Part shown: piece by piece, positions 14,085-34,217 of the stretch
Layout of the letters: the number at the start of each line of letters is the position of its first letter
Position numbering within the stretch: the first letter of the stretch is position 1
DNA from: Candidatus Peregrinibacteria bacterium GW2011_GWF2_39_17
Lineage (GTDB): Bacteria > Patescibacteriota > Gracilibacteria > UBA1369 > UBA12473
Direction of reading: 5' to 3'
Length of the DNA stretch: 64,000 bases
NCBI GenBank assembly: GCA_000993615.1
Contig: LBWM01000007.1
Location: 1-64,000 of the forward strand
The notes under the pieces: model-generated
Seen by the model: the letters and a program-made list of their open reading frames with translations, nothing else
What the model was told of the DNA's origin: nothing
Database searches by the model: none
Made by a program: the position numbers and the translations under genes

Positions 14085-16973
14085 TTACCCCATTCGACTC
14101 AACCTTGCAAATAGTAGAAATGCCGCGGTAAAGAGGATGCCCATCCCAAAAGGGGCAATGGTCGAGATCCAATTGCGACGACCCGGCTTGAAGTATTTCA
14201 AAAAGAGTGAATTAGAAACAACGGATACCGAGCTGAGCGCCATGGCCAGTCCAGCCAATTCCGGTTTAAGGATAATGTCCCAGGCCACAAATAGGCGAGC
14301 CGCAATCGGTATGCCGATGATGTTGTAGAACAGTGCAAAGAACATATTTTGCTTAATTTTACCCATGGTGTCGCGACTTAAATCGATCGCGGTCAATACA
14401 TCACGCAAATCATCCTTGATGATGACGATTCCGCCGGTTTCCATGGCCACATCTGTGCCGCCTCCCATGGCAATGCCAAGATCAGCCTGAGCAAGCGCGG
14501 GCGCATCATTGATCCCATCACCCACCATAGCCACTTTAAACCCTAAACTTTGTAATTTTTTGACTTCATTCGCCTTGTCGTCCGGCAAAACTTCAGCCAA
14601 AATATTTTTAATACCCGCCTGCCTGGCAATGGCCTGAGCTGTTCGAAGATTATCACCCGTGATCATATAGAGATTAAGTCCACGTTTTTGCAATTCGCGT
14701 ACGGCCTCAACTGAACTTTCTTTTAAGGTGTCGGCCACGGCAATCATGCCGATGACTTCGCTTTCAGAACACAATGTCACCACGGTTTTTCCCGCGTCTT
14801 CGAGTCGTTGGGCCTTTCGTGCGGCCTTTGATCCATCCAAATGGGCGATTTCCGAAATGAGTTTTTGATTTCCGAGATAATATTTCTTACCGTCAATAAT
14901 GCCTTCCACCCCATGACCGGGAATGGCCTTAAAATTTTGGGGTTCCTGCAGAGAAATGGTTTCTTCTTCAGAATATTTCACAATGGCTTCAGCCAGGGGA
15001 TGCTCGGAAAGTTTTTCCAAACTTGCGGCCAACGCCACAATATCCTCTTCGTCCTGAGTCCCCAAACTGATGACGTCCGTCACTTCAGGATGCCCTTTGG
15101 TCAATGTTCCTGTTTTATCAAAAACAATCGTTTTAATTTTACAAGCGGCCTCAAGTGGTTCACCTCCTTTTATTAGGACACCGTATTCAGCGCCTTTGCC
15201 CGTTCCCACCATAATGGCGGTTGGAGTGGCCAAGCCCAGTGCGCAAGGGCACGCGATCACGATAACCGAAGTAAACGCCATTAAGCTAAATGTCCACCCT
15301 GCGCCCAAAAACGCAAACCACACGAGGAATGTTAAAGCAGCCAGGATTAAAACAATCGGAACAAACCATGAAGAAATACGATCCGCAACAGCCTGAATTG
15401 GCGCTTTGGAACCTTGCGCTTCTTCAATCAAGCGGATGATTTGGGCCAGAGCGGTTTCACTGCCCACGCGGGTGGCTTTGAATTCAAAACTGCCGTGCTT
15501 ATTAATTGTAGCACCAATAACTTGATCGCCACTGTTTTTTTCAACTGGGATGCTTTCCCCAGTGAGCATCGACTCATCGACAGAGGAAGTCCCTTTAGTG
15601 ATGACGCCATCCACCGGGATTTTTTCCCCAGGACGCACCACGACAATATCCCCAATGATCACCTGCTCGATCGGAATATCCGTTGTGAGTCCATCACGAA
15701 TCACTCGAGCTGTTTTCGGCTGCAAGCCCATGAGTTTTTTAATGGCATCAGATGTACGGCCCTTTGCTTTGGCTTCAAGCCATTTGCCGAGCATCACGAA
15801 CGTGATCAAAAACGCAGCGGTTTCAAAGTAGAGTTCAGGAATTTTTGCTCCATTCAATCCAATAATACTTTGATTAGCGATGGCATAAGCGATGAATTGG
15901 CCTAAACTATAAAAATAAGCCGTGCTCGTGCCAATGGCGATCAAACTGTCCATATTAAAAGTTTTCATGCGCAAACTGCTCCACATGCCTCTGTAAAAAC
16001 CCGCACCGATGAGGAATTGGACGGGAGTGGTCAAAATAAATGACAGGATGCCAACGTACGGCAAAAGCCATGCCTTTCCGGGTAAGAAATTAAAAAAATC
16101 AAAAAACATAAAATAGACCATCGGCAAACTGAGCGCAGCGCCCCATAAAAATTTTTGCCACTGTTTTTTAATCATCTCCTCACGCCTATTTTTTTCGGCA
16201 TCGCGATCTTCTGTGTAAAGTTCCGCTCGGTAACCAGCATGTTTGACGGCTTCCATTAAATCATTAACCCCTACCGAGGAGGTGTCGTATAGAATGCGCG
16301 CTTTTTCTGCAGCAAAATTAACATTGGCTTCCTTGACACCTTTTAAATCCTTTAAACTGCGTTCGATGATGCCCGCGCATGAAGCGCAATGCATCCCGAT
16401 GATGCTTAGATAGGCCTGCTCATCTTTTTTATGACCAGATACTTGGATATTGTTTTTTGGTAAAGCATGGACTGAGGGCTGCTCCAGCGATTGCATGCCC
16501 GAAAAAACGCTAAACAGTTGTCCTATTTTGGACGAATTCAAAAGCTTGTCGACAAATTGATCGATGTCATCATGGCCCTGTGGGATTTCAAATTCGCCCT
16601 TTTTATGTTGGATGAGTTTTCCGGAAAAATTGGGCTGTGCTCCGTTGGATGAAAATGCCCCTTCAGCCTCAATGGCGGATTCCAATCTTATTTTAAACGG
16701 GGATTGACTACTCACCGTCTTCTTTTTTAATACAAGGGGGGGGGCATCAAGGGCTTCGCGTTTTACAAGAGTGGCTTTATAGCCGGATTTAGTAATGGTT
16801 TTTAAAAGGACATCATCAGAGATAGGTTGTGATGTTTCAATCTGACCTTGTCCAGAGGCGTAGTCTATTTCTGCCTTCAGGATGCCAGGTATTTTTTGTA
16901 AATCACTGGCGATGATTTTTTCACACGACTTACAATGCATTCCTGAAATTTTGACAATGATTTTTTCAGACAT
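14085..16973 (-). CDS. copA: Copper-exporting P-type ATPase CopA
   Basis: 962 residues, a P1B-1 ATPase. Two N-terminal heavy-metal-associated domains are visible, GMHCKSC near residue 11 and GMHCASC near 192, separated by a linker of about 100 residues unlike the usual short one. Then come the eight-helix core, actuator motif TGES, membrane copper site CPC (IACPCALG), phosphorylation site [17 protein letters not shown], and [12 protein letters not shown]. It pumps Cu(I) out of the cytosol. It is the last gene of the csoR operon, 29 nt after the copZ-like gene. The operon looks richer in G+C than its neighbours, which may reflect transfer. Confidence 0.95.
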
Positions 16974-17002
16974 GGGACAAAGGAGTTAGGTTAATAAAGG
17001 AA

Positions 17003-17218
17003 TTATTGATGGATTTTATCTACAGTTTTATCAATGGCCTTCAAGGCATTTACAATTTCTTCCCATACAAGCTGTCGTTTAGAAATGACCTTAGAAAGGC
17101 CAGTTTTTAGCTCCACACTAGCGTCATCCACACCAGAGATTTCTTGCAGGGCACCTATACTTAATTTGACGCACGCCTCACATTCCAAATTGGTAATTCT
17201 AAAGTTTGTCGTAAACAT
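17003..17218 (-). CDS. copZ: Heavy-metal-associated domain protein, CopZ-like copper chaperone
   Basis: 71 residues forming a single HMA (ferredoxin-like) domain with a CEAC metal site near residue 13 (LECEACVKLSIGAL). The first variable position of the usual GMxCxxC motif is changed (NLECEAC), but both Cys are present. It probably ferries Cu(I) in the cytosol to the neighbouring CopA. It sits 12 nt after the SafE gene and 29 nt before copA. Confidence 0.8.
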   Translation of the reverse strand: MFTTNFRITNLECEACVKLSIGALQEISGVDDASVELKTGLSKVISKRQLVWEEIVNALKAIDKTVDKIHQ

Positions 17219-17230
17219 GGGTTATTTGGG

Positions 17231-18577
17231 TTAAATGATTTTTAAAACGTCGCCCTCAATCACGATGAACTTCCCTCTATACATGCCCATGGAACATGAA
17301 AACGGAATTTCACCCACTTTTGCAGGAGTAAATTCAATGATGTTTTCTCCTTTTTTAAGTGATTCATTGACTCCATAAGAAGGAACGACAAGAGAACTGG
17401 CACAAGAAAATGGAGCTGTGGAATTGATGATCCAACGGACAGGTTTATTGACTTGAATAGTGAACACGTTGGGCGTGTACCCGCTATTACCTTGCGTCAT
17501 GCGTACTTCTTGAAATTCACCATTAACTGTAACCGTAGGTTCAACAGGAAGTGTGACCGAGGAAATTAAGCGACGGCCATTGGTCACATTCAATGTACCT
17601 AAAAAGATTACGGCTAAGCCAGCAACCATGAAAAATAATCGGGCTTGTCTGCCACGAAAAATTGACGAGAGTCCTCCAACGCCTAAAAGTCCAGGCGCTG
17701 TGCCTAGAGCGAAAAGGCCCATGATGAGTGCTCCCTGAAAAAAACTACCTGTGCTGACAGCATACAATTGCATGGCCTGCGTAAACCCACACGGCAAGAA
17801 AAAAGTTAGCGCGCCTGTGAGGATAGCTCCACTGTGATTATATTCACGTTGGTCTTTATGTAACCCAAATAATTTAGAAATAGACGAGGGCAAGCTGATG
17901 CTTTTATCACGTAAAGCCGGGAATATTTCGATCAACTTTAGGCCTAAAAATATCATCACCCCACCGACTATAATCGTCATGACGCCCAGTACATTGGGCG
18001 AAGGTTTTAACACAGATCCCAAAAGTCCAATCATCCCACCCAAAATGGCATACCCTATTATCCGGCCTAAATTAAAATAAAGATGGGGTCGAAATTTTTG
18101 CATGGGCGTGGCTTCTGGATGCATTTCTGCATGGCGAGCGGAAAGTCCAAGCACCAATCCACCCACAAGCGCCATGCACGTTGAAATTCCGGCCACGAGT
18201 CCTACGACAAGCGCGACAATAAGTCCCGTGTTTTCAAAATTTGAGCCCAAGTCGATATTGAAAATCCCCAAACTCTTCGCGATGAAAAATAAAACGATGA
18301 GAATTAGCCCTGCTTTTAATAAATCCTCGTAATCCATGGGTTCAGTGGAAATCCAGGGCAGTTTTTTGGGGTTACCCAGCTCGTAACCAGCCTCCTCAAT
18401 GGCAAGAGCTAACTTTTGATTAGACGGTTTAGCCCCTTCGTAACTGATTTCGGCCTGTCCGGAATGGTAGCTGACGTGTACTTGATGAACCCCGGGAATT
18501 TTTTTGAGATTTTTTTCGATAATTATTTCACATGACCGACAGTGCATGCCGCGTATTTTTATAGTGATTTTATTCAT
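17231..18577 (-). CDS. HMA - SafE/DsbD-like membrane - cupredoxin fusion protein
   Basis: 448 residues in three parts. Residues 1-68 are an HMA domain with GMHCRSC. Residues about 85-335 are a six- to seven-helix sulfite exporter TauE/SafE (DsbD/UreH-like) membrane domain. Residues about 350-448 are a cupredoxin-like beta-sandwich with PFSCASS and FSCSMGMYRGKF, giving two Cys and Met residues as likely copper ligands instead of the usual His-Cys-His-Met set. Such fusions are known from copper-resistance loci. A plausible role is moving Cu(I) or electrons across the membrane to an extracytoplasmic copper site. It starts 4 nt after csoR, so it is cotranscribed and probably copper-induced. Confidence 0.82.
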   Translation of the reverse strand: MNKITIKIRGMHCRSCEIIIEKNLKKIPGVHQVHVSYHSGQAEISYEGAKPSNQKLALAIEEAGYELGNPKKLPWISTEPMDYEDLLKAGLILIVLFFIAKSLGIFNIDLGSNFENTGLIVALVVGLVAGISTCMALVGGLVLGLSARHAEMHPEATPMQKFRPHLYFNLGRIIGYAILGGMIGLLGSVLKPSPNVLGVMTIIVGGVMIFLGLKLIEIFPALRDKSISLPSSISKLFGLHKDQREYNHSGAILTGALTFFLPCGFTQAMQLYAVSTGSFFQGALIMGLFALGTAPGLLGVGGLSSIFRGRQARLFFMVAGLAVIFLGTLNVTNGRRLISSVTLPVEPTVTVNGEFQEVRMTQGNSGYTPNVFTIQVNKPVRWIINSTAPFSCASSLVVPSYGVNESLKKGENIIEFTPAKVGEIPFSCSMGMYRGKFIVIEGDVLKII

Positions 18578-31863: not shown

Positions 31864-31893
31864 TTGACAGTCTAAATGGGCTAATGCTAAATA
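31864..31893 (+). promoter_or_regulatory. Promoter of the cysteine leader and operon
   Basis: TTGACA (31864-31869) with TAAATA (31888-31893) at 18-nt spacing. Start near 31900, about 30 nt before the leader ATG. Confidence 0.65.
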
Positions 31894-31929
31894 TAAAAGA
31901 ATCTAAAATTTAGAGTAAGCTACTTAAAT

Positions 31930-31995
31930 ATGATTTATTCTCAGTTAATTAGTAATTGTTGTTGCCTAAGCAAGGAAGCGCCACTGGAGAGCTGA
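31930..31995 (+). CDS. Cysteine leader peptide of the cys operon
   Basis: A 21-codon ORF, ATG at 31930, TGA at 31993-31995. Codons 10-12 (31957-31965) are TGT TGT TGC, three cysteines in a row (context Ser-Asn-Cys-Cys-Cys-Leu). Helix TCTCAG (31939-31944)/CTGAGA (31992-31997) encloses these codons, and a small hairpin TTGC/GCAA overlaps and follows them. The intrinsic terminator at 32017-32053 comes next, then the cystathionine beta-synthase-like gene. Cys is rare in bacterial proteins, so three in a row upstream of a Cys-making operon is strong circumstantial support for ribosome-mediated attenuation. Confidence 0.8.
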   Translation: MIYSQLISNCCCLSKEAPLES

Positions 31996-32016
31996 GATTT
32001 TAAATTTAAAATTATT

Positions 32017-32053
32017 TAGCCTTCAGTAGGTTGCTACGGAAAGGCTATTTTTT
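32017..32053 (+). terminator. Attenuator terminator before the cys operon
   Basis: TAGCCTT (32017-32023) pairs with AAGGCTA (32041-32047), with an inner GTAG/CTAC stem, followed by TTTTTT. It ends 21 nt before the first structural gene. CTGAG of the upstream helix can instead pair with TTCAG in the terminator loop side, a possible antiterminator. Confidence 0.75.
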
Positions 32054-32074: not shown

Positions 32075-33055
32075 ATGCCTGCAACTCATTCTATTTTAAG
32101 GTCAATCGGAAATACTCCTCTTGTTAAATTAAAAAGAATAAACCCATATTCAAATATTGAGCTTTTGGTAAAACTAGAATTTTTTAATCCCAGTGGGAGT
32201 ATTAAAGATCGAATTGTAAAGCATATTATTGAACATGCTGAGGCTGAAGGATTAATTAAGCCAGGTGGGACAATTGTTGAAAACACATCTGGCAATACAG
32301 GCGCGGCCGTGGCCATGATTGCTGCGATCAAGGGCTATAAAGCTATTTTGACCATGCCTGATAAAGTCAGTGTGGAAAAACAAAATTCACTTAAGGCTTA
32401 CGGCGCCAAAATTGTAGTTACCCCAACGTCAGCATCACCAGATTCACCAGACCATTATGTAAATACAGCCAAGCGTATTGCAGCGGAAACTCCAAATAGT
32501 TTTCGTGTTAATCAATATGATAACCCTAAAAATCCTGAGGCTCATTATCTTTCAACTGGGCCGGAAATTTGGGAACAAACCAAGGGGGCCGTAACTCATT
32601 TTGTGGCAGCTGGAAGTACCGGTGGCACTATTAGTGGAATTGGTCGATATCTTAAGGAAAGAAATCCTAATATTAAAATTATTATGCCGGATCCGATTGG
32701 ATCAATTTATTATGATTATTTTAAAACCGGCCAGATTCGGAAAGATGGTAGTTGCAGCTATCAAGTGGAAGGTGTCGGGGAAGATCACCTTGCTAAGGCT
32801 ATGGATTTTTCTTTGGTTGATGATATGTTTCAATTTACAGATCAGAATGCTTTTTCTACGGCCCGTCGTTTGGCTAGAGAGGAAGGTATTTTCGGTGGGG
32901 GGACTGGTGGGGCAAATGTTTGGGCCGCCTTAAAATTAGCTCAATCTCTTACAGAACCAGCCACTATTGTTACTGTAATCCCGGACAACGGGGTAAAATA
33001 TTTGAGTAAATTTTACAATGATCAGTGGATGCTCGAAAATAATTATGAAATTTAA
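32075..33055 (+). CDS. Cystathionine beta-synthase / cysteine synthase family enzyme
   Basis: 326 residues, PLP fold type II. The PLP lysine lies in PSGSIKDRIVKHI near residue 45, the phosphate/substrate loop in ENTSGNTGAAVAMIAA, and the PLP phosphate site in AAGSTGGTISGIG. The later run KIIMPDPIGSIYYDYF and VEGVGEDHLAKAMDFSLVDD is closer to cystathionine beta-synthases than to O-acetylserine sulfhydrylases. With the next gene it forms a pair like mccA-mccB of Bacillus, which makes cysteine from homocysteine via cystathionine. It lacks the C-terminal CBS regulatory domains of eukaryotic enzymes. Confidence 0.88.
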   Translation: MPATHSILRSIGNTPLVKLKRINPYSNIELLVKLEFFNPSGSIKDRIVKHIIEHAEAEGLIKPGGTIVENTSGNTGAAVAMIAAIKGYKAILTMPDKVSVEKQNSLKAYGAKIVVTPTSASPDSPDHYVNTAKRIAAETPNSFRVNQYDNPKNPEAHYLSTGPEIWEQTKGAVTHFVAAGSTGGTISGIGRYLKERNPNIKIIMPDPIGSIYYDYFKTGQIRKDGSCSYQVEGVGEDHLAKAMDFSLVDDMFQFTDQNAFSTARRLAREEGIFGGGTGGANVWAALKLAQSLTEPATIVTVIPDNGVKYLSKFYNDQWMLENNYEI

Positions 33056-33074: not shown

Positions 33075-34217
33075 ATGCAATTTTCCACCAAAGTTATTCA
33101 TGTGGGGCAAGAGCCTGAAAAAATTACCGGAGCGATTATCCCTCCTATTTATATGACCTCTACTTATGTCCAAGAGACCCCTGGAAAGGATCGAGGCTAT
33201 GATTATACTAGAGCTGGAAATCCAAATTTTTCCAATCTTGAGCATGCGCTCTCTGCCCTAGAAGAAGGAAAATACGCAACGGTTTTTTCTTCGGGTTTAG
33301 GCGCGATTACCGCCTTGCTCTCTAGTTTAAAAATAGGCGATAAAGTTGTAGGGACAAATGATATTTATGGCGGTACGCATCGTTTATTTGATCAGGTTTT
33401 TAAACCGTTTGGTCTCCATTTTGAGTTAATTGATACGCAGAATTTACTAGAAGCAGAGAAAATTTTAAAAAAAGAACCTAAATTTATTTTCCTGGAATCT
33501 CCTACAAATCCCCAATTAAAAATATCAAATATTAAAGAAATTTCTAAGCTAGCTCATAAATATGGTGTGTTAGTTGTGGTGGATAATACCTTTGCTTCGC
33601 CCTATTTTCAAAATCCGCTTTTGTTAGGGGCTGATATTGTTTTGCATAGTACAACCAAATATATTAGCGGCCACTCTGATATTATCGGTGGCGCCGTTAT
33701 TACAAATAGCGAATCTTTAAAGGGGAAAATGGATTTTGCCCGCAAGGCCATGGGCATTAATCCCAGCCCTTTTGATGTTTGGTTAATTAGTCGCGGAATT
33801 AAAACTTTGGCAATTAGGATGCAAAGACATGGTGAAAATGCTCTAAAAATTGCTCAATATTTCGAAAATAATTCTATGGTTAAAAAGGTTTATTATCCCG
33901 GATTACCAAGCCACCATAATTATGAGATAGCAAAACAGCAGATGAGAGGATTTAGTGGTATGGTCTCAGTTGAATTTGATTTAGATTTAGAGCAAATAAA
34001 AAAAGTAATTTCCTCATTTCAGGTTTTTTCCTTAGCTGAAAGTCTTGGCGGAGTTGAATCCTTGGTTGATCATCCAGCCAGTATGACCCATGCTTCTATC
34101 CCAAAAGAAAAGCGGCTAGAAAACGGGCTTACTGATGAATTAGTAAGATTTTCAGTCGGGATCGAAGACATTGAAGATTTAATAGGGGATTTAAAGCAGG
34201 GACTTTCTAAGGCCTAA
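33075..34217 (+). CDS. Cystathionine gamma-lyase/synthase family PLP enzyme
   Basis: About 380 residues of the Cys/Met-metabolism PLP family (fold type I). Motifs: IIPPIYMTSTYVQ, DYTRAGNPNFSNLEHALSAL, FSSGLGAITALL, VVVDNTFASPYFQNPLLLGADI and the PLP lysine in LHSTTKYISGHSD. SLAESLGGVESLVDHPASMTH is the C-terminal signature. I place the start at 33075 (MQFSTKVIH), where homologues begin; the ORF opens earlier, at 33018. Next to a CBS-like enzyme the likely role is cystathionine gamma-lyase, giving cysteine. A gamma-synthase activity cannot be excluded from sequence. Confidence 0.9.
   Translation: MQFSTKVIHVGQEPEKITGAIIPPIYMTSTYVQETPGKDRGYDYTRAGNPNFSNLEHALSALEEGKYATVFSSGLGAITALLSSLKIGDKVVGTNDIYGGTHRLFDQVFKPFGLHFELIDTQNLLEAEKILKKEPKFIFLESPTNPQLKISNIKEISKLAHKYGVLVVVDNTFASPYFQNPLLLGADIVLHSTTKYISGHSDIIGGAVITNSESLKGKMDFARKAMGINPSPFDVWLISRGIKTLAIRMQRHGENALKIAQYFENNSMVKKVYYPGLPSHHNYEIAKQQMRGFSGMVSVEFDLDLEQIKKVISSFQVFSLAESLGGVESLVDHPASMTHASIPKEKRLENGLTDELVRFSVGIEDIEDLIGDLKQGLSKA

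Follow-up and report, generated by a model that had tools for sequence, protein, structure and literature searches.

A probable cysteine-specific, ribosome-mediated transcription attenuator upstream of cysteine biosynthesis genes in Patescibacteria

Introduction

What is a short reading frame with three Cys codons in a row doing between a promoter-like sequence and a terminator, just in front of two genes that presumably make cysteine? The locus that raises this question lies on contig 7 of a 1.31-Mb genome (98% complete) of the Patescibacteria (CPR; Gracilibacteria in the broad sense), in an order represented by 89 genomes of 0.7 to 1.5 Mb. The whole stretch of 64,000 nucleotides that we analysed on this contig is called the window hereafter. 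To our knowledge, hardly anything has been learnt about how Patescibacteria control their genes. A first-pass annotation of the window had proposed that a shortage of Cys-tRNA stalls the ribosome on these codons, disrupts a helix enclosing them and permits read-through of the terminator. The anatomy of the locus, its predicted folds and its recurrence in relatives lead us to conclude that the element is very probably a cysteine-specific, ribosome-mediated transcription attenuator.

Results

The TTGACA hexamer, the 21-codon leader ORF and its TGT TGT TGC run, all picked out in the first-pass annotation, agree with the sequence base for base (Table 1). Its 7-bp terminator with six Ts, its spacing to the CBS-like gene and the gamma-lyase-like gene behind were likewise borne out by the sequence and by NCBIfam scores, and the TCTCAG/CTGAGA pairing around the Cys codons is present, forming together with the terminator in the minimum free energy (MFE) fold of the untranslated leader. 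The predicted start site lies about 30 nt upstream of the leader ATG, in front of which no clear Shine-Dalgarno sequence is visible in the window. A stretch resembling the promoter-like sequence of the window (TAGACA..TGCTAAATTT) stands at the equivalent place 5′ of the leader in G011, a relative of the same order in which the CBS-like and gamma-lyase-type genes are also side by side. From knowledge of the two families, we take this gene pair to be suited to making cysteine out of homocysteine. The class of the window genome includes families that read through TGA within genes. In the window genome itself, TGA closes 28 of the 221 ORFs that are 200 aa or longer; it is an ordinary stop, and the leader ORF therefore ends at 31995. 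The window and 20 other stretches of the genome (about 0.39 Mb, on which the genome-wide counts are based) hold 248 genes with products of 150 aa or more; the combination of a CCC leader and a terminator is unique among them to this locus.

Table 1. Features of the two divergent leader regions and of the genes behind the Cys leader (positions in the window)
Feature	Position	Strand	Details
Sigma-70-like promoter	31864..31893	+	TTGACA 31864-31869; 3′ of it, TGCTAAATA at 31885-31893; extended −10 TGC-TAAATA; match to consensus only
Leader ORF MIYSQLISNCCCLSKEAPLES	31930..31995	+	ATG 31930, TGA 31993-31995, 21 codons; codons 10-12 (31957-31965) TGT TGT TGC (Cys-Cys-Cys)
Protector helix	31939..31997	+	TCTCAG 31939-31944 with CTGAGA 31992-31997; Cys codons inside
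Antiterminator (predicted)	31977..32035	+	ACUGGAG 31983-31989:CUUCAGU 32021-32027; GCUGA 31991-31995:UUAGC 32016-32020; further inner AU-rich and outer pairs
Intrinsic terminator TAGCCTT-CAGTAGGTTGCTACGGA-AAGGCTA + T6	32017..32053	+	From the sequence; 7-bp stem, arms 32017-32023 and 32041-32047; T6 32048-32053; 21 nt from T-run to ATG (32075)
CBS-like/cysteine synthase family gene, without C-terminal regulatory domain	32075..33055	+	NCBIfam TIGR01137 408 bits (under cut-off 510), TIGR01136 332 bits
Cystathionine gamma-lyase/gamma-synthase-type gene	33075..34217	+	NCBIfam PRK07811, PRK07671 and others, 457-480 bits; none over cut-off
Aromatic leader MNLLALQTSQKKNFLINGEFWFYFYFSKRP	31781-31689	-	Before the shikimate operon of the window
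Terminator of aromatic leader	31652-31634	-	Before the shikimate operon of the window

Folds were computed by removing the RNA covered by a ribosome and folding the remainder, an equilibrium treatment that differs from co-transcriptional folding. Whichever of the three Cys codons occupies the A site, the uncovered RNA is predicted to form the antiterminator (−23.8 kcal/mol), which occupies the 5′ arm of the terminator (−12.9 to −13.7 kcal/mol). The computed probability of the terminator, P(terminator), is then 0.00 to 0.01 for stalls at C10 to C12, wherever between +9 and +18 nt the ribosome edge is placed, counting from the start of the A-site codon; it amounts to 0.90 with the ribosome at the stop codon and to 0.64 to 0.74 with no ribosome. 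When the spacer was dinucleotide-shuffled 150 times, P(terminator) never fell as low as in the window leader, in a comparison that uses the minimum over the stall codons and is thereby slightly favourable. The predicted folds support the sequence of stalling, helix disruption and read-through proposed in the first-pass annotation. The best antiterminator helix is larger than the CTGAG/TTCAG pairing named there (Table 1).

The comparative search that had also been suggested was based on genes of the cysteine-synthase family (TIGR01136) from the class and from a sample of the phylum. Thirty-eight cysK/CBS-family loci with enough upstream sequence were read, as well as 28 DAHP synthase and 18 cysE loci. 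At 17 of the 38 cysK/CBS-family loci, the gene is preceded by a terminator and, ahead of this, by a short ORF that contains neighbouring Cys codons (CCC at 12); no Cys-run leader with terminator was found at the other 21. Besides that of the window, 16 cysK/CBS-family genes thus have a leader placed alike, and the 17 loci span 14 family-level groups, 3 of them outside the class of the window genome. The Cys codons are kept in kind, with ACC in G011 (MKNKFKIFACCRALKG, with terminator; CBS-like protein 77% identical), CICCC in G217 (MIPTASCICCCTIEHCSRAT; 80% identical; terminator CTCTCGA-AGTA-TCGAGAG-T8), VCCC in G068, and Cys runs at 13 further loci. Other leaders read MNNKSDQKNCCCKACTKEVVFLYP (G028), MKPLNTYNQANNCCCNLGMIPRLYCLCSCR (G062), MLLISNCACCCCISCGGGCCK (G232) and MNSALRNTICCCTSLS (G328), and two complete leader-terminator units (MNKYLNLKQNCCCTNSL and MKYILKNLKIQFCCCKDPPCCS) stand in series before cysK in G608 (L147). 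Upstream of cysE, putative Cys attenuators were read in two TGA-recoded genomes, a single one in G165 (L191) and a tandem in G156 (L192; MNLSLQYIICCSSLISQGYFV and MFRKFYTSIFFCTPLEQERCCCCL).

Most Bacteroidota, Chlamydiae and other CBS homologs (L005-L083) gave no convincing Cys leader with terminator, with the clear exception of L012 (82% identical), which lies on a contig assigned to a Bacteroidetes bin and whose leader MKHSFYNDSCCCTLKSRLRACCCC is followed by a strong terminator. This leader resembles MNYFLHNSACCFPFIKLLRECCCC of G216 (L118), a member of the window's class, and the likeness possibly reflects misbinning or transfer of the gene plus its attenuator. Upstream of the CBS gene of Falkowbacteria SZUA-104 (L006, positions 300-390; 80% identical), a stretch without Cys leader looks like the L012 terminator region and is perhaps a decayed attenuator.

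The predicted switch also extends to relatives. At most of the 17 loci, P(terminator) is low for a ribosome on the Cys run but high for one at the stop codon (0.00 vs 0.98 in L127, 0.01 vs 0.93 in L138, 0.02 vs 0.97 in L148 and 0.00 vs 0.99 in L140), and its value at the Cys run mostly lies under those of nearly all spacer shuffles. By contrast, the switch is absent from the folding of L115, L129 and L147 and from the MFE folds of L012, where the terminator is still favoured at the stall; the simple model therefore does not fit all loci, and equilibrium folding may be a poor guide for these four, or their terminator may have been mis-assigned.

These observations bear on a reading in which the Cys-run leader acts through translational coupling or Rho-dependent termination, as put forward for Actinobacteria, and the hairpin is a by-product. 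Cys leaders of that phylum lack conserved terminators and yet are cysteine-responsive (PMC1262725; Canestrari 2020, as cited in PMC13236596), which lends this reading some credit. However, a hairpin with T-run lies between leader and gene at 17 of the 17 scored loci, where it is part of the scoring criterion, and at most of them it is mutually exclusive with the stall-dependent helix. In the window, moreover, some 80 nt separate the stop codon of the leader from the start of the gene, which is too far for simple coupling. We thus regard this reading as improbable in comparison with transcription attenuation.

Could the arrangement be fortuitous, an ordinary terminator of an upstream transcript combined with a spurious short ORF in which CCC occurs by accident? 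The genome is AT-rich, short ORFs and terminators are common in it (462 short-ORF/terminator pairs in the sampled sequence), and ORFs with CC only and a hairpin are found at 5 other genes of the 248-gene sample. Nevertheless, the recurrence at 17 of 38 loci already contradicts chance: in shuffled upstream regions, CC with terminator occurs in 13 of 1520 cases (0.9%) and CCC with terminator in 1 of 1520 (0.07%). Cys is also the commonest doublet and triplet among all twenty amino acids in these short ORFs, and the leader peptides of the recurring loci differ widely. At the DAHP synthase loci of the same order, a CC leader is found at 0 of 28 and an aromatic leader (W/F/Y; at least five of eight residues aromatic) at 16, with runs such as WGFFYFYF, WAFFYFFS and WGFEFYFYFY; at cysK/CBS loci, aromatic-run leaders number 0 of 38. 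There is thus a double dissociation between the two kinds of leader, each amino acid being matched to the gene downstream. Finally, the gene upstream in the window is divergent, so that no plus-strand gene is there to be terminated. Coincidence is accordingly a very remote explanation.

Control of the operon by a T-box or a metabolite riboswitch is just as implausible. A divergent T-box (L091, 2521-2764, minus strand; 59 bits, below the gathering score; E 1e-11) does precede a CBS-family gene of the same phylum, in G389, where the gene appears to have changed its sensing system. In the window, no Rfam family reaches its gathering score for the leader (chance matches only at E ≤ 10), neither the T-box model RF00230, which finds L091 in a like search, nor a riboswitch family matches the leader in L001 even at E 10, and the UGGN bulge sequence is absent by eye; no such family reaches gathering score at the other cysK/CBS loci either. 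A small functional cysteine-rich peptide, binding metal or redox-active, would agree with the six or more Cys of several leaders (e.g. MLLISNCACCCCISCGGGCCK in L134) but is highly unlikely given that the leaders range from 13 to 30 aa with variable Cys spacing, that residues outside the Cys run are mostly unconserved and that ORF and gene are always parted by a terminator.

Discussion

The attenuation mechanism that we favour would operate as follows. RNA polymerase would start about 30 nt 5′ of the leader, which a ribosome would then translate. With enough Cys-tRNA, the ribosome would reach the stop codon and cover 31983-31995, the terminator (32017-32053) would form and transcription would end. 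When Cys-tRNA is short, the ribosome would wait at Cys codons 10-12 and leave 31977-32002 free to capture the 5′ arm of the terminator (32016-32027), and the resulting read-through would give expression of the CBS-like and gamma-lyase-type genes, hence cysteine from homocysteine. A leader that is not translated would keep protector and terminator folded, which is predicted to be an off state. Three marks of a ribosome-mediated attenuator are found together: what reads as a run of codons for the operon's own amino acid in a short leader ORF, an intrinsic terminator between this ORF and the first gene and, in the computed folds, an antiterminator exposed only by a stall at the regulatory codons.

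The closest known system in form is uORFC-8-2, with 145 described examples, all of which lie upstream of cysS in Rhodobacterales (PMC8632094). As in the window element, a short uORF contains tandem Cys codons and is followed by a terminator-like stem and a U-run; ribosome-mediated attenuation by the level of Cys-tRNA has been proposed for it (PMC8632094). It differs by its exclusive location upstream of cysS in Rhodobacterales, by a Cys pair at codons 14-15 and by a conserved, alignable motif, whereas the patescibacterial element precedes cysteine biosynthesis genes (in the window, CBS-like and gamma-lyase-type genes and not cysS), has its triplet at codons 10-12 in the window, has no Rfam match and does not align between relatives.

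Cys-run leaders have also been predicted in Mycobacterium and Propionibacterium, where they stand before cys operons, and in Bifidobacterium longum, where one precedes cbs, explicitly without terminators (Seliverstov 2005, PMC1262725). In mycobacteria, polycysteine short ORFs have been reported as cysteine-responsive attenuators (Canestrari 2020, as cited in PMC13236596); they are leaderless and described as acting by translation attenuation. The likeness lies in the Cys-run short ORF before cys operons or cbs. The window element departs from these leaders by its predicted antiterminator and intrinsic terminator and by the distance between its predicted start site and its ATG. The first-pass annotation was thus right that Cys leaders are known in Actinobacteria, but the terminator form that it held to be new has its precedent in uORFC-8-2.

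The classical trp, his, phe, leu and ilv attenuators share with the window element a leader ORF with codons for the regulated amino acid and the protector/antiterminator/terminator arrangement, and differ by their amino acids and by the phyla in which the literature that we consulted describes them (Proteobacteria, Actinobacteria, Firmicutes). T-box leaders of cysteine genes also sense tRNA charging to control an intrinsic terminator, but they bind uncharged tRNA directly, without translation. On account of these comparisons, we place the window element among the classical ribosome-mediated transcription attenuators.

As far as the open-access literature that we searched shows, the novelty lies in the presence and spread of Cys attenuators in Patescibacteria, at cysteine biosynthesis genes and sometimes in tandem; no paper joining Patescibacteria with leader-peptide attenuation was found there. 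Our results would extend terminator-type Cys attenuation from cysS of Rhodobacterales to cysteine biosynthesis in another phylum, and the tandem units raise the question of a sharper control. Since such a recurring switch can be read from sequence, it directly predicts the amino acid to which a given gene responds, in cells that are uncultivated and often host-dependent. On a broader scale, it is rather likely that many Patescibacteria, whose genomes are small with few regulators, use ribosome-mediated attenuation as a main mode of amino-acid control. It would act through Cys at cysK/CBS and cysE, at times with two attenuators in series, and through aromatic residues (W/F/Y) at DAHP synthase, and its rapid evolution would preserve nothing but the codon run and the logic of the fold.

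The window carries an aromatic counterpart as well. Its shikimate operon (DAHP synthase, aroB, aroA, shikimate kinase and nadB) is divergent from the cysteine genes and is preceded by an aromatic leader whose computed P(terminator) is near 0 for stalls at F20 to F24 and 0.99 at the stop codon. As the Cys and aromatic attenuators are on opposite strands, the two operons meet with their attenuators back to back. This aromatic leader was initially read as MESFGFTFIFRKGRKGVLV, a frame dropped because homologs conserve the overlapping one (Table 1). Leader attenuation is not found at every amino-acid operon: a His leader was sought at hisG in 4 genomes of the order and none was found, and the CBS-family gene of G389 has its T-box. 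Upstream of hisG in L206 and L208, the end of a helix-turn-helix protein (..SETGASTATVTRVAHWLHHGEGGYKLVLKRL) is seen beside the his genes, which presumably recalls the TrpR/YerC (HisR) family. When runs of any amino acid were sought across 0.4 Mb of the genome, the output was too noisy for use. Elsewhere in the window, a large ORF resembling metal-transporting P-type ATPases (14085-18577, minus strand) appears by eye to carry two CxxC domains, next to an ORF that looks heavy-metal-associated and sulfite-exporter-like.
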